From positions 1 to 64,000 of the forward strand of contig JASHOF010000012.1 of assembly GCA_030041255.1 (NCBI GenBank): a DNA stretch of 64,000 nucleotides, written 5' to 3'. The position numbers and the translations under genes were made by a program. Source of the DNA: Acetobacteraceae bacterium. GTDB lineage: Bacteria; Pseudomonadota; Alphaproteobacteria; Acetobacterales; Acetobacteraceae. How positions within the stretch are numbered: the first letter of the stretch is position 1; each line of letters begins with the position of its first letter. Below the pieces are notes generated by a model. That model worked only from the letters and a program-made list of their open reading frames with translations. It was not told where the DNA came from and did no database searches. This document shows positions 42,123 through 49,878 of the stretch, one piece after another.

Positions 42123-45100
42123 TCAGATCGCTTCCACCCGTTCCACACCCGGCACGAGCTTCAGCGCCTGTGCCAGTCTCGGCGTGACCCGGAATCCGCC
42201 CGGCAGCGCGATCTCCACCGACTCCGCGCGCGCCAGGCGCGGCAGCAGAACAACCCGCCCGCGCCCGCCTGCTTCGTGCCCGAGCAGACTCCTGATCGGC
42301 CCTACAGCCTCGATGCGGTCGAGCCACACCCGAAGGCCCTCCGCGGTCGCCGCGGCGGCTTCATCGAGTGGCGCCATCTCGTGCGCCGTGACGCGCAGAC
42401 TTTCTCCATCCAGTCGCACATCCGCTATCGCCAGCAGATTCGTGCCTGCCTCCAGAAGCCCGTGCGTGCGTGCCAGCACCTCGCTGAACACCGTGATCTC
42501 GAACGTCCCCCCGCCATCGGAAAGCCGGACCCATGCCATCCGGTTGCCGTTCCTGGTCGTTCGCTCCTTGACCGCAATCACCGTGCCAGCCAGCTTCAGC
42601 CGTGCTGCCCCCGCTGCTGCCCGTGCCTCGATCCGGTTGCTCGCTACCACCCCCATCCGCGCGAGAACGTCGGCATAGGCATCGAGCGGATGCGCCGACA
42701 GGTGAAACCCGATCGCTTCCGCCTCGAAGGAAAGCCGCTCCATCGGCGGCCAGTCGTCAAGCGGCGGCAGTTCCAGCGCCGCCGTTGCCGCACCCCCGAA
42801 CAGCCCGATCTGTCCGCTTCCGTTCTCTGCCGCCACGACCTGTGCGCGCCGCAGAATCGTTTCGCACGCCGAAAAAAAACGCGCCCGATTCGCCTCCAGC
42901 GCGTCGAACGCCCCTGCCTTCACCAGATTCTCAAGCTGCATCCGATTGAGATGGCGCGGATCGACCCGCCGCGCGAAATCGCCGATATCGCTGAATGGCC
43001 GCTCTCCGCGTGCCGCCACCACCGCCTGCATCGCCGCCAGGCCCACTTTCTTTACCGCCGCCAGCGCGTAACGGATGGCAAGCGCGCCTCCCGCACAGCG
43101 CTCGACCGAAAAATCCGCCCCCGAGCGGTTGATGTCGGGTGGCAGCACGGCAATGCCGAGCCGCGCCGCCTCCTGCCGATAAGCCGCCAGCTTGTCGGTA
43201 TTGGAAAGGGCAAGGCTCATGCACGCGGCCAGGAACACCGCCGGGTGGTTCGCCTTCATCCATGCCGTCTGATACGCCACCAGCGCGTAGGCGCAGGCAT
43301 GGCTCTTGTTGAAGCCGTAATCGGCGAAACGCGCCATCAGGTCGAAGATCTCGCCTGCCTTTTCAGCCGGAATGCCGTGCGCTATGGCGCCCTCGGTGAA
43401 CGTCTCGCGCTGGCTTTCCATTTCGGCGCGGATTTTCTTCCCCATCGCCCGCCGCAGGAGATCGGCCGCCCCCAGGCTGTAGCCGGCGAGCAGCTGGGCG
43501 ATCTGCATCACCTGCTCCTGATAGACCATGATCCCGTAAGTCTCGCCCAGAATTTCCGAGAGCGCCGGATGCGGCGGCTCCCACGCCTCGCCGTGCTTCC
43601 TCTGGCAGAACGCCGGGATATTCGCCATCGGGCCGGGCCGGTACAGTGCCACCGCGGCGATCAGGTCCTCGAACCGATCGGGCCGCATCTGGCGCAGCAC
43701 ATCGCGCATGCCCTGGCCTTCGAACTGGAACACTCCGCCCGCATCGCTCCGGCTCAGCATCGCGTAGGTTGCCGGATCATCGAGCGGCAATCGATCGAGA
43801 TCGACCGCGATGCCGAGTTCGGCCAGGAAGTCAGCGGCACGCTTGAGCACCGTGAGCGTCGTCAGACCAAGGAAATCGAACTTGATCAGCCCCGCATGCT
43901 CGATGTGTTTCATCGAGTACTGGGTCACCAGGAAGTCCGAGCGCGGATCGCGATAAAGCGGTACCAGCTCGATCAGCGGCCGATCCCCGATCACCACCCC
44001 GGCGGCGTGCGTGCTGGCATGCCGATACAGCCCCTCGATCCTGAGCGCGATTTCGAACAAGCGCCGCACCTCCTCATCCGAATCCCGCATCTGCTGAAGC
44101 CGCGGTTCCATCGCGATCGCCTGCTCGAGGCTCACCGGATGCGCCGGATTGTTGGGAATAAGTTCCGCCACCTTGTTCACCTGCCCGTACGGCAATCCCA
44201 GCACGCGCCCCACATCGCGCACCGCCGCCCGCGCCTGCAACGTGCCGAAGGTGATGATCTGCGCCACCCGGTCCGCACCGTACTCGGAGCGCACATAGCC
44301 GATCACCTCGTCGCGCCGCTCCTGGCAGAAATCGATGTCGAAATCGGGCATCGACACCCGTTCGGGATTGAGAAACCGCTCGAACAGAAGGCCGAACCGG
44401 ATCGGATCGAGATCCGTGATCGTGAGCGCCCACGCGACCACCGAGCCCGCACCGGAGCCACGTCCCGGCCCGACCGGAATGCGCTGCGATTTCGCCCACT
44501 GCACGAAATCGGCGACGATCAGGAAATAACCGGCAAACCCCATCCGCGAGATCACGCCGAGCTCGTATTCCAGTCTCTCCTGGTAACGTTTGCGCAGCGC
44601 GCCGGCCGCCACTGCCATCCGCCGGTCGAGCCCCGCCCGCGCCATCATCGTCAACTGCTCTTCCTCGCTCGCCCCGGCCTCGAGCTTCGGGAAGCGCGGC
44701 AGCATCGGCTTCCTTGCTTCCGCCATCACCGCACAACGCTCTGCGATCGCCAGCGTGTTGTCGCAGGCATCCGCCAGATCCGCGAACAGGGCCCGCATCG
44801 CCGGTGCCGGCTTGAACCACTGCTCCGGCGAGGCACGCCTGCGATCCGTCTCTGCGAGCAGGCGCCCTTCGGCAATGCAGAGCAATGCATCCTGCGCTTC
44901 GAACATTGCCGGATCCGCAAACAGGCAGTCGTTGGTTGCAACCAGCGGCAATCCGGCCTCCTCGGAGAGCCGAATGAGCCCGACCTCCACGATTGGTTCT
45001 GCCGCCAGCCCGTGGCGGTTGAGCTCGACCGCGATGCGGTCGGCAAACGCCTCCTTGAGCACCGCGAGCGACGCCCGCGCCTCCGCCTCCTGTCCCTCGG

Positions 45101-46248: not shown

Positions 46249-47501
46249 TCATGCCGGAGCGCTTCGACCGGATCCGTCCGCGCCGCCCGCCAGCTTGGAT
46301 AGATCGTGGCCAGGAACGCCAGCGCCAGCGCCATCACGATCACCCGGATCACCTCGCGCCAGTCGAGCACGGCAGGAAGCTGCTCGAGGTAATAGACTTC
46401 CGGATTGAAGAGATCGGTCCCCGTGAGCCCCTGCAGCCATTGCCTGATCGTTTCGATGTTGTGGCAGAAAAGAATGCCGATCACCGTGCCCGCAACCGTT
46501 CCCACCACCCCGACCGACGCCCCGCACATCAGGAAGATGCGCATCACCGCCCCGCGGCTCGCCCCGATCGTGCGCAGAACTGCGATGTCTCCCGTCTTGT
46601 CCTTCACCATCATGATCAGGGACGAAACGATATTGAACGCGGCTACCAGGATGATCAGCGTGAGGATCAGGAACATTACGTTCCGCTCCACTGTGACCGC
46701 CGCGAAGAAGCTGTCGTTCGCCTGCTGCCAGTCGATGATTCTGAGCGGCCGCCCGGCGAGAGTCCGTGCGATCTTCGCTTCCACGCCACCGACCGCATCG
46801 GGATTCGAGAGCGTCACCTGGATTTGCGTTGCCGCGTTGGGCTTCTGGAAGAATACCTGCGCGGCCACGAGCGGCAGGAATACGAAGGTTGAATCGTACT
46901 CGTTCATCCCGACCTGGAAGATTGCCACTACCCGGTACGCGCGAATGCGCGGAATGGTGCCGAGCACGGTCGCCGCCCCCTGCGGCGAGACGAGCGTGAT
47001 CCGATCACCGACACGAAGTCCGAGCGCGCTCGCCACCCCGCTGCCGATGGCGGCCGCATCCTCGCTCGTGAAGTCCTTCAGGTCGCCCGCGATGACATGC
47101 CCGCTCACCGAACTCAGTGCTTCCAGGTCGGCTTGCCCGATGCCGCGGATCAGCCCACCGACCGCCGCCCCGTGATCATTGCTGAGCAGGACCTGGCCCT
47201 CAACGATCGGCATAGCCGAAACGACACCTGGCACCGCCCGGATCGTCCTCGCGATCGCTTGGTAATCGCTGATTGCCACACCCACCCCGTAGACACCGAG
47301 ATCTCCGTTGAGCCCGAGGATCCGGGCCAGCAACTCCTGGCGGAACCCGTTCATCACGCTCATCACGATGATCAGTGTCGCCACACCGAGCGCGATTCCG
47401 ATCAGCGAGAACGCGGCGATGACCGAGACGAACCGCTCGCCCCGCCGCGCCCGCAGATAGCGGAGCGCGACCGTCCGCTCAAAGGCACCGAACATGCTCA
47501 A
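46245..47501 (-). CDS. lolC: Lipoprotein-releasing system permease (LolC/LolE)
   Basis: A 418-residue inner-membrane permease. [20 protein letters not shown] leads into the first helix [21 protein letters not shown] periplasmic domain (about residues 50-270) is followed by three helices, the first with [20 protein letters not shown], the coupling region, and the end [20 protein letters not shown], which is the FtsX/LolC family signature. With one such gene, it probably forms a LolC2D2 (LolF-like) complex. It overlaps both proS (ATGA) and lolD. Confidence 0.95.
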
Positions 47502-48808
47502 ACGATCTGCGCGAGAGCCGAATCGAGCGAGAGCTCCTGCCGCTCGCCGCTCGCCCTACGCTTCAGCTCCACCTGGCCCCTCGCCGCCCCGCGCGGGCCG
47601 ACGATGAGCTGCCAGGGATGACCCATCAGGTCGGCATCCGCGAACTTGACACCCGCGCGTTCCTCCCGGTCGTCATAAAGCACCGACGGGGCAAGTTTCC
47701 CGTAAAGGTCTTCCGCCATCCGCTCGCACGCCGGATCACCGGCCTTGAGATTCAGGATCGCCGCGCGGAACGGCGCCACCGCATCCGGCCAGATGATCCC
47801 CGCCTCGTCGTGGAACGCCTCGATCAGGGCGCCGACCAGCCGGCTCACACCGATGCCGTAGCTGCCCATTTCCGGTGCCACCGGACGCCCGTCCGGCCCG
47901 GCTACAGCAAAGCCCATCGCGGTGCTGTATTTGGTGCCGAAATAGAAAACGTGCCCGACTTCGATCCCGCGCCCTTCGCGCCGCCGCCCTGCCGCAAGTG
48001 CTGCAAAGGCTGCCGGATCGTGCTTCTCGTCGGTCGCGGCGTAGTGCGTCGTCACCAGCCCGAAGAAGCGATCGAGATCGGCTTCCGAAAAAATATCAAA
48101 GCCGCTCGCAGAATAATCGATTTCCTCGAACGCCGCATCGTAATAGACGGCGCTCTCCCCGGTTGGTGCGAGGATGATGAACTCGTGGCTCATATTGCCG
48201 CCGATCGGCCCGGATTCGGCCTGCATCGGAATCGCCTTCAGCCCCATCCGGCGGAACGTGCGCATATAGGAAAGCATCATCCGGCGGTAGCTCGCCACCG
48301 CACCCGCGTAGTCGATGTCGAAACTGTAAGCGTCCTTCATCAGGAACTCGCGCCCCCGCATCACCCCGAAGCGCGGCCTCACCTCATCGCGGAACTTCCA
48401 CTGGATATGATAGAGGATCTGCGGCAGGGCACGGTACGAGCGCACCGACTGGCGGAACAGATCCGTGATCATCTCCTCGTTGGTCGGCCCGTAGAGAAGA
48501 TCACGTTCGTGCCGGTCTTTCAGGCGCAGCATCTCCTTGCCGTAGTCCTCGTAGCGCCCGCTCTCGCGCCAGAGCTCTGCCGGCTGGATGGTCGGCATCA
48601 GAAGCTCCTGCGCGCCGGCTGCGTCCTGCTCTTCGCGCACGATCCGGGCTACCTTCTGCAGCACCCTGAGGCCAGCCGGCAGCCAGGCGTAGATGCCGGC
48701 CGCGGTCTGCCGCACCAGGCCCGCGCGCAGCATGAGCCGGTGCGAGACGATCTGCGCTTCGGTTGGAGTTTCCTTCAATGTCGGCACCAGGCTGTGGGAA
48801 AGGCGCAT
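47498..48808 (-). CDS. proS: Prolyl-tRNA synthetase, short (alphaproteobacterial) type
   Basis: The 436-residue class II synthetase charges tRNA-Pro. Motif 1 region [20 protein letters not shown], motif 2 [25 protein letters not shown] (an interior part is shown by [12 protein letters not shown]), motif 3 [17 protein letters not shown], and the C-terminal anticodon domain are present. The large editing insertion of bacterial ProRS is absent, which is the mitochondrial/alphaproteobacterial form. It is the first gene of the proS-lolC-lolD-dnaE operon. Confidence 0.95.
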
Positions 48809-48961: not shown

Positions 48962-48990
48962 GTGACACGCAATCGGCAAACGGCTAACAG
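48962..48990 (+). promoter_or_regulatory. Candidate sigma-70-like promoter of the pre-kdsB transcript
   Basis: GTGACA (48962-48967) and TAACAG (48985-48990) are 17 bases apart. The -35 box is good, the -10 box mediocre. A start near 48997 would fit the terminator-ended transcript that follows. Confidence 0.35.
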
Positions 48991-48996
48991 AGACTG

Positions 48997-49081
48997 GGCA
49001 GTTGGCCAAGTTTAGGGAGAGAACGTATCCTCTGCTTGGCGGGATGAGGAGGGCTTCCTCATCCTGCCTATTTTTGTTTTT
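48997..49081 (+). ncRNA. Candidate small RNA or kdsB leader ending in a strong terminator
   Basis: The 332-base gap between proS and kdsB holds no supported gene. About 85 bases downstream of a candidate promoter end in a perfect-looking Rho-independent terminator, so a short independent transcript is plausible. GCCAAG (49004-49009) can pair with CTTGGC (49035-49040), whose last three bases also form the foot of the terminator stem, so the two structures exclude each other in part, like an attenuator. TTGGCCAA appears at both 49002-49009 and 49080-49087. I recognise no known RNA family. Confidence 0.4.
49038..49081 (+). terminator. Rho-independent terminator before kdsB
   Basis: GGCGGGATGAGGA (49038-49050) pairs with TCCTCATCCTGCC (49056-49068) through 13 positions including one G-T, with a 5-base loop. 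TATTTTTGTTTTT follows. It ends 60 bases before the kdsB start. Confidence 0.8.
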
Positions 49082-49140
49082 GGCCAACCGAGCGAATCCT
49101 CCGCATCGCTCGCCGACACGCATCCGAGGCATTCCTCCCT

Positions 49141-49878
49141 GTGCGACCCGTCGTCGTCATTCCTACGCGCCTGGGCTCTCAGCGCCTGCCCGGTAAAGCG
49201 CTGACCGAAATCGCCGGCGAGCCGATGATCGTGCAGGTCTGGCGCCGTGGCATGGAAGCCGATATCGGCCCCGTGCTCGTCGCCTGCGGCGACGCTCCGA
49301 TTGCGGATGCGATCCGTGCCGCCGGCGGCGAGGCGGTGCTCACCGATCCTGCGCTCCCCACCGGATCCGACCGCGTGCAGGCCGCACTAGCCTTGACCGA
49401 TCCCGGCTGTCGCTACGACATCGTCGTCGTGCTGCAGGGCGATCTGCCGACCATCGATCCCGCCGTGCTGCGTGCCACCCTCCCGCCGCTCGCCGAGCCC
49501 GAAGTCAGCATCTCCACACTCGCCACCGAAATCACGGATCCGCTCGAGCTCCAGGCCCCCCAGGTCGTCAAGATCGCGCTCGCCATTCGCCCCGGTCGTG
49601 CGACCGGCCGTGCGCTCTATTTCAGCCGCGCCGTCATCCCCGGCGGCGCCGGGCCGCATTATCATCATGTTGGCCTCTACACCTATCGCCGCCCGGCACT
49701 CGACCGCTATGTGTCGCTCCCACGCGGAGTACTGGAAAGGCGTGAAAATCTCGAACAGCTCCGCGCTCTCGAACACGGCATGCGCATCGACGCTACTGTG
49801 ATCGAGACCGAGCCTCTCGGCGTGGACACACTCGCGGATCTCGAACGCGCGCGCTCCTTCCTTGGCAGAATGCCTTGA
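49141..49878 (+). CDS. kdsB: 3-deoxy-manno-octulosonate cytidylyltransferase
   Basis: KdsB activates Kdo as CMP-Kdo for lipid A core synthesis. The 245-residue product has the nucleotide loop VVVIPTRLGSQRLPGKALTE, the metal-site VVVLQGDLPTIDP, ALYFSRAVIPGG and HHVGLYTYRRPALDRYV. The start is GTG at 49141 (MRPVVVIPTRLGSQRLPGK). A strong terminator lies 60 bases upstream, so kdsB either has its own promoter in that short gap or depends on read-through. It is convergent with secA. Confidence 0.95.
   Translation: MRPVVVIPTRLGSQRLPGKALTEIAGEPMIVQVWRRGMEADIGPVLVACGDAPIADAIRAAGGEAVLTDPALPTGSDRVQAALALTDPGCRYDIVVVLQGDLPTIDPAVLRATLPPLAEPEVSISTLATEITDPLELQAPQVVKIALAIRPGRATGRALYFSRAVIPGGAGPHYHHVGLYTYRRPALDRYVSLPRGVLERRENLEQLRALEHGMRIDATVIETEPLGVDTLADLERARSFLGRMP

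Follow-up and report, generated by a model that had tools for sequence, protein, structure and literature searches.

The window analysed here, 64,000 nucleotides of an Acetobacteraceae contig (JASHOF010000012.1, positions 1 to 64,000, forward strand), contains a non-coding locus between two divergent genes: proS on the minus strand (47498–48808; PF00587 and PF03129), which served as the synteny anchor, and kdsB on the plus strand (49141–49878; CTP_transf_3, PF02348, E = 2.2e-32), the next plus-strand gene downstream. Between them, a plus-strand hairpin of 13 pairs, one of them G-U (arms 49038–49050 and 49056–49068, 5-nt loop 49051–49055), is followed by a T-rich tail (49069–49081), so that the terminator-like element as a whole occupies 49038–49081. 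Upstream on the same strand (48962–48990) lies a promoter-like pair, GTGACA (48962–48967) and TAACAG (48985–48990), separated by 17 nt. A second plus-strand stem within 49005–49040, GCCAAG (49005–49010) with CTTGGC (49035–49040), would hold a G/A-rich core in its loop and excludes the foot of the terminator stem; the locus thereby has two mutually exclusive stems, one of them a terminator, as an attenuated leader would need. The hairpin, T-tract, promoter pair and competing stem, as well as the opposite strand of proS, were all found by direct reading as the original prediction had described them. From the promoter and terminator, the fold of a 93-nt segment (z = -4.1 against 200 shuffles) and the conserved block structure, a small RNA is predicted at 48997–49081 (+), whose 5′ end would lie about 6–7 nt past the -10 box.

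The hairpin had been called the clearest terminator in the window. This is correct for intergenic DNA: scoring of the whole window (with a formula of the d'Aubenton-Carafa type) gave three positive sites, among which the locus hairpin ranked second, the first being inside the dnaE frame. The latter site (42880–42903, minus strand), a hairpin with eight T, is probably a chance occurrence in coding DNA. Within the 6 kb scanned the hairpin is the longest terminator-like stem, one of 5 such sites against 2.7 expected from shuffles; a chance terminator was dropped as an explanation, since the stems are conserved. A simple consensus scan of the same 6 kb called no promoters, leaving the GTGACA/TAACAG pair uncalled.

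At gathering thresholds, an Rfam scan of the whole window returned tRNA only and no RF00519, and a new Rfam family on the plus strand was rejected (chance-level matches only). The earlier statement that the element belongs to no known RNA family thus stands for Rfam on the plus strand. It does not stand for the locus, which appears to be the antisense of an alphaR8-type sRNA gene. The minus strand resembles mmgR/suhB weakly and over part of its length (11.8 bits, E = 9.4), short of the RF00519 gathering score of 41 bits, and in place of the alphaR8 10-mer UUUCCUCCCU it reads UUCUCUCCCU, differing at 2 of 10 positions. A DNA search of 40 relatives matched four other members of the genus (best E from 3e-114 to 3e-6) and, in many members of the family, a stretch of 22 bases corresponding to window positions 49005–49026. 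When 20 matching stretches were scanned, 14 reached the RF00519 cut-off, three scored 34.3–37.4 bits and three had no match; in the RF00519-type stretches the sRNA strand was always opposite to the window plus sequence. Since the sRNAs of the relatives are read from the opposite strand, the plus strand of the window carries the complement of the alphaR8 core; at the level of sequence, 49005–49026 (+) is the reverse complement of the conserved alphaR8/mmgR core.

Type a of these loci (GGACGTTTCCTCCCTAAACTTGGCGG) is the canonical alphaR8 locus. It scores 52.7 bits in the window's own genome, where it adjoins a gene for N-formylglutamate amidohydrolase (FGase; PF05013, E = 2.8e-80), and the same FGase linkage is described for Caulobacter SisA (PMC12559287). 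Type b (GTGACTGGCGTTTCCTCCCTAAAC) is found upstream of proS, in the same orientation as that gene, and is built of a 5′ hairpin, the core and a terminator. An alphaR8-like sRNA linked to proS was present at 16 of 80 named proS loci, in 16/16 cases on the proS strand, and the proS-linked sRNAs of relatives have the 10-mer, the 5′ hairpin and the terminator. Of 397 genomes of the family, 215 contain the type-b core pattern; where carriers are named, they belong mostly to the Acetobacteraceae (Caldovatus, Belnapia, Siccirubricoccus and Neoroseomonas). Three type-b sRNAs (L027, L030 and L040, 34–37 bits) were noted under the RF00519 cut-off of 41. Judged by sequence, the window locus is of the proS-linked type b, and what had been taken for a terminator is the type-b 5′ hairpin in antisense; it is homologous to that of the ancestral minus-strand sRNA. 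The relic of that sRNA gene spans 48991–49068 (-), its sense promoter and terminator being past recognition. The locus therefore resembles the alphaR8/mmgR/suhB family (SisA-D, MmgR) in descending from an alphaR8-like gene, with the core kept on the opposite strand, and differs from it in that, in the window genus, promoter and terminator are both absent from the sense strand; the window copy scores below the Rfam cut-off. The presence of mmgR itself on the minus strand was dropped as an explanation, the sense signals being absent.

At most proS-linked family loci, the strand opposite the type-b sRNA carries a predicted promoter of consensus tTGAC-17-TAaaAA, which adjoins the T-run of the sRNA and in the relatives is directed into the sRNA gene. 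Plain counting of consensus promoters placed the genus members no better than shuffles, and a free motif search locked onto the A-tract opposite the T-run; both were replaced by anchored and held-out tests. TGAC stood 22 nt before TA in 33 of 88 dereplicated proS-linked loci (the next-best offset reached 4), and this register was found in 5/5 genus members and in none of the 16 type-a loci with a TA. When a matrix trained on one half of the loci was applied to the other half, the median scores were 12.3 and 12.5 bits, compared with 3.7 and 3.4 for shuffles. The spacing was 17 in 69 of 90 family loci, the score exceeded the shuffle 95% point in 69/90, and the family median of 11.8 bits compares with 11.8–14.4 bits in the genus. 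A strict form of the promoter matched in 15 of 299 genomes and 7 of 102 genera, and a reversed control pattern had 0 matches. By these sequence comparisons the GTGACA-17-TAACAG pair of the window is the family antisense promoter; the promoter suspected in the original prediction is thus one conserved in relatives, and the case for its reality rests on that conservation.

We then compared the signals of the two strands between the family and the genus of the window. In a collection that favours intact sense copies (relatives were gathered with patterns requiring a near-intact core), the sRNA-strand terminator was positive at 81 of 90 proS-linked family loci and in 0/5 genus members, and the terminator of the opposite (+) strand was positive at 7/90 and in 4/5, respectively. 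The sense terminator scores -36.3 in the window and is negative in all five members. The plus terminator reaches 23.5 in the window species and its close twin only, is marginal in two members (3.2 and 2.3) and scores -12.4 in one. The sense promoter, TTGGAC-18-CATCAT, has a family median of 12.8 bits (shuffles 1.7, 95% point 8.0), and the five genus members score -4.3 to 1.9 bits. When the signals were tallied jointly, sense promoter, sense terminator and antisense promoter occurred together at 52 of the 90 family loci, and Caldovatus and Belnapia are examples of relatives with both sets of signals; in the genus both sense signals were gone and the antisense promoter was retained in 5/5, with an antisense terminator in 4/5. 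For these comparisons, rows sharing 80% identity or more in the central 140 nt were collapsed (107 to 90, 36 to 29 and 37 to 36), and the dereplicated set also trained the promoter matrices, the genus members being outside the training. For sequence comparison 100 of the pattern-listed places were picked by hand, loci with the core too near a contig end were left out, the window-species rows L001 and L002, missed by the locus pattern, were added by hand, and four extra loci entered the joint tally because a pattern had picked them up.

Since the sense signals are lost and the antisense signals kept in the genus, the locus seems to have been strand-switched, and we regard such a switch of an alphaR8-like locus as likely. 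The genus evidence comes from five genomes, two of them near-identical at the locus, and probably records one evolutionary event. In other lineages, the antisense promoter survives at L312, L315 and L316, where the sense signals are gone and there is no plus terminator; L313 has retained neither promoter. Because L312, L315 and L316 are without a plus terminator and L313 kept none of these signals, the loss of sense signals could also be plain decay.

Within the genus, constraint follows the elements of the predicted plus-strand RNA. When four representatives of the genus are compared, identity is high for the -35 element (1.00), the -10 box (0.89), the core complement (0.91), the 3′ arm of the alternative stem (0.86) and the hairpin arms (0.96). 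It drops to 0.57 for the promoter spacer, 0.42 for the leader, 0.44 for the link and 0.27 for the loop; between the hairpin and kdsB, a stretch that includes the old sense promoter, it is 0.31. The conservation of the stems in relatives, named beforehand as a check, was found: the hairpin is paired in 65 of 65 cells on the plus strand (62/65 on the minus strand), and the alternative stem in 29 of 30, although the latter is absent from the minimum-energy fold of the window RNA. Both substitutions in the genus hairpin keep the pair on the plus strand (as G-U) and break it on the minus strand; because there are only two, the difference in pairing between the strands is weak evidence by itself. 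Outside the genus such wobble counts are mixed, with 15 loci favouring plus and 6 minus in the TTGGCCC clade, and 5 favouring plus and 11 minus in the CGGGCC clade. Conservation of the promoter boxes, core and stems thus supports the two products originally proposed, a free plus-strand RNA some 85 nt long or a terminated kdsB leader. These readings are compatible and can both be true.

What such an RNA might do is suggested by its complementarity to an sRNA of the same cell. Its predicted pairing with the FGase-linked type-a alphaR8 sRNA of its own genome covers 21 of 22 positions, with 15 contiguous pairs, an A-C mismatch, a G-U and 5 more pairs, and the A-to-G changes in the cores of L004 and L005 each retain a G-U pair with the target. 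The type-a sRNA scores above the RF00519 cut-off in 5/5 genus genomes, and an Hfq gene was found in 4/5, the miss (G003) being an incomplete assembly. In the window species, the cofold is 16.2 kcal/mol more favourable than the two RNAs folded separately. Whole-length duplex energies discriminate poorly for this species, the value of -64.1 not being extreme among shuffles (mean -51.3, s.d. 5.4, minimum -68.6); in L004 and L005 they lie beyond all 200 shuffles.

An antagonist acting in this way is described in Caulobacter crescentus: according to PMC12559287, a G/A-rich stem-loop of the CrfA RNA pairs with the alphaR8 10-mer, depends on Hfq and lowers SisA-D. The plus-strand RNA resembles CrfA in having its own predicted promoter and a G/A-rich sequence complementary to the alphaR8 10-mer, which may likewise lie in a stem-loop, and it would antagonise several siblings; an independent promoter (5/5 members) and terminator (4/5) are predicted. 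It differs in being the antisense strand of a former alphaR8-like gene, located upstream of kdsB. Common descent with crfA is unlikely, because the present locus descends from an alphaR8-like gene. By analogy, a CrfA-like action is the most likely one for the plus-strand RNA.

We favour, by a modest degree of confidence, the explanation that the plus-strand RNA is a CrfA-like alphaR8 antagonist derived from the front end of the transcription unit of kdsB. The genus would have dropped the promoter and terminator of the minus-strand sRNA, retained the antisense side and gained a terminator for it. An Hfq-type RNA of about 85 nt would be transcribed from the former antisense promoter and present the G/A-rich UUUAGGGAGAGAACG, partly in the loop of the GCCAAG/CUUGGC stem, and this sequence would pair with the CUCCCUAAACUUGG core of the cell's surviving alphaR8 sRNA or sRNAs. 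The pairing would keep these sRNAs off the ribosome-binding sites of mRNAs and/or mark them for decay, as with CrfA. By eye, no separate kdsB promoter is evident in 49082–49140, and therefore read-through from the promoter of the plus-strand RNA may feed kdsB. Read-through beyond the hairpin would then place the antagonist level and kdsB transcription under one promoter. From transcription and its start site to Hfq binding, antagonism and the coupling to kdsB, these steps are what we infer.

A narrower reading, to which we give roughly one part in four of our belief, is that the antisense promoter of a dying sRNA gene ended up in front of kdsB and that the plus-strand RNA is only the kdsB 5′ leader with a partial terminator, the alphaR8 complement being a relic or used in cis. 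Indeed, kdsB is directly downstream in 5/5 genus members (L001–L005), and tblastn found it at 0 of 107 proS-linked family loci, an absence that is weakly tested because only about 0.4–0.5 kb was covered on the kdsB side for most of them. The G/A-rich core could also pair, by folding, with ATTCCTCCCT at 49131–49140 (+), just before the kdsB start and one mismatch from the alphaR8 10-mer; the kept core could serve the leader's own folding alone. However, this CU-rich partner was not seen in L005, and ATTCCTCCCT may be a chance occurrence, because the window holds 5 matches to the 10-mer with at most one mismatch where 2.1 are expected. Identity in the core, moreover, is 91%, against 31–44% in the leader, link and tail, which speaks against a function confined to the leader.

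It is unlikely, in our view, that the locus served cis-antisense control only, interfering with the overlapping sRNA or forming a duplex with it across the family, and that the window genus keeps a non-functional remainder. The antisense promoter, which stands out from shuffles at most family loci, and the frequent coexistence of sense and antisense signals there fit such control; in the genus, though, no sense partner is left, yet the core and the promoter are still constrained. Less probable still is that a minus-strand alphaR8-like sRNA remains the product, its signals missed by the models and the plus signals incidental: the core is conserved, and in L004 and L005 a weak minus-strand hairpin is still followed by a short T-run (CTTTTGTT), but the sense promoter scores of the genus lie far below the family median and the shuffle 95% point, the sense terminator is negative throughout, and the broken hairpin cells are on the minus strand only.

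If the CrfA-like reading is extended to the history of the locus, an sRNA gene would have become an antagonist of its own family through strand switching: a pre-existing, lineage-wide antisense promoter would have been kept, the sense RNA dropped, and a terminated sponge tied to an envelope gene, kdsB. We put this forward tentatively, as somewhat doubtful in its entirety. The nearest precedent for the ancestral arrangement seems to be CJnc190/CJnc180 of Campylobacter jejuni, a trans-acting sRNA with a cis-encoded antisense antagonist (PMC8687705). There, as predicted at most family loci here, an sRNA overlaps with an RNA of the opposite strand that has a promoter of its own; both strands are made in C. 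jejuni, whereas the window genus has the antisense side only, which would act on paralogues elsewhere.

A literature search, with subscription papers mostly outside its scope, returned nothing on antisense RNA of alphaR8 sRNAs or on strand switching of sRNAs. The MicF sponge of Salmonella is said to derive from a 5′-UTR; the plus-strand RNA would share with it an origin in the leader of a protein gene, with no sequence relation between the two. To our knowledge, the origin of bacterial sponge RNAs is largely unknown. The present locus would offer a traceable one, with relatives that carry sense and antisense signals and a genus that carries the antisense side only, and it makes the question testable in culturable Acetobacteraceae, with a predicted target sRNA. 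If the proposal is true, a regulator can become the antagonist of its own family when read from the other strand. L312, L315 and L316 look part-way along the same path, and strand switching would then be a route by which sponge RNAs arise repeatedly in bacteria. The comparison also suggests that the proS-linked alphaR8 branch carries a conserved antisense promoter and scores below the Rfam cut-off, and Rfam probably misses this type-b branch for that reason.

Several further alphaR8-like sequences were seen in these genomes. In some genera, type-b sRNAs (L151–L180) lie shortly before a gene other than proS, apparently, by eye, without the antisense promoter. The window's own genome holds another sub-cut-off candidate, L286 (G000:C138:20739-20812; 33.4 bits), with the core ACGTTCCCTCCCCCGAAACTTGG and a T-run terminator, and its counterpart in G004, L287, scores 30.6 bits. 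The core pattern occurs seven times in G081, two of these on a separate contig (C3), and six times in G265, where two of the copies lie on C12 at a distance of 264 bases; the copies in both genomes represent an expansion of alphaR8 siblings.
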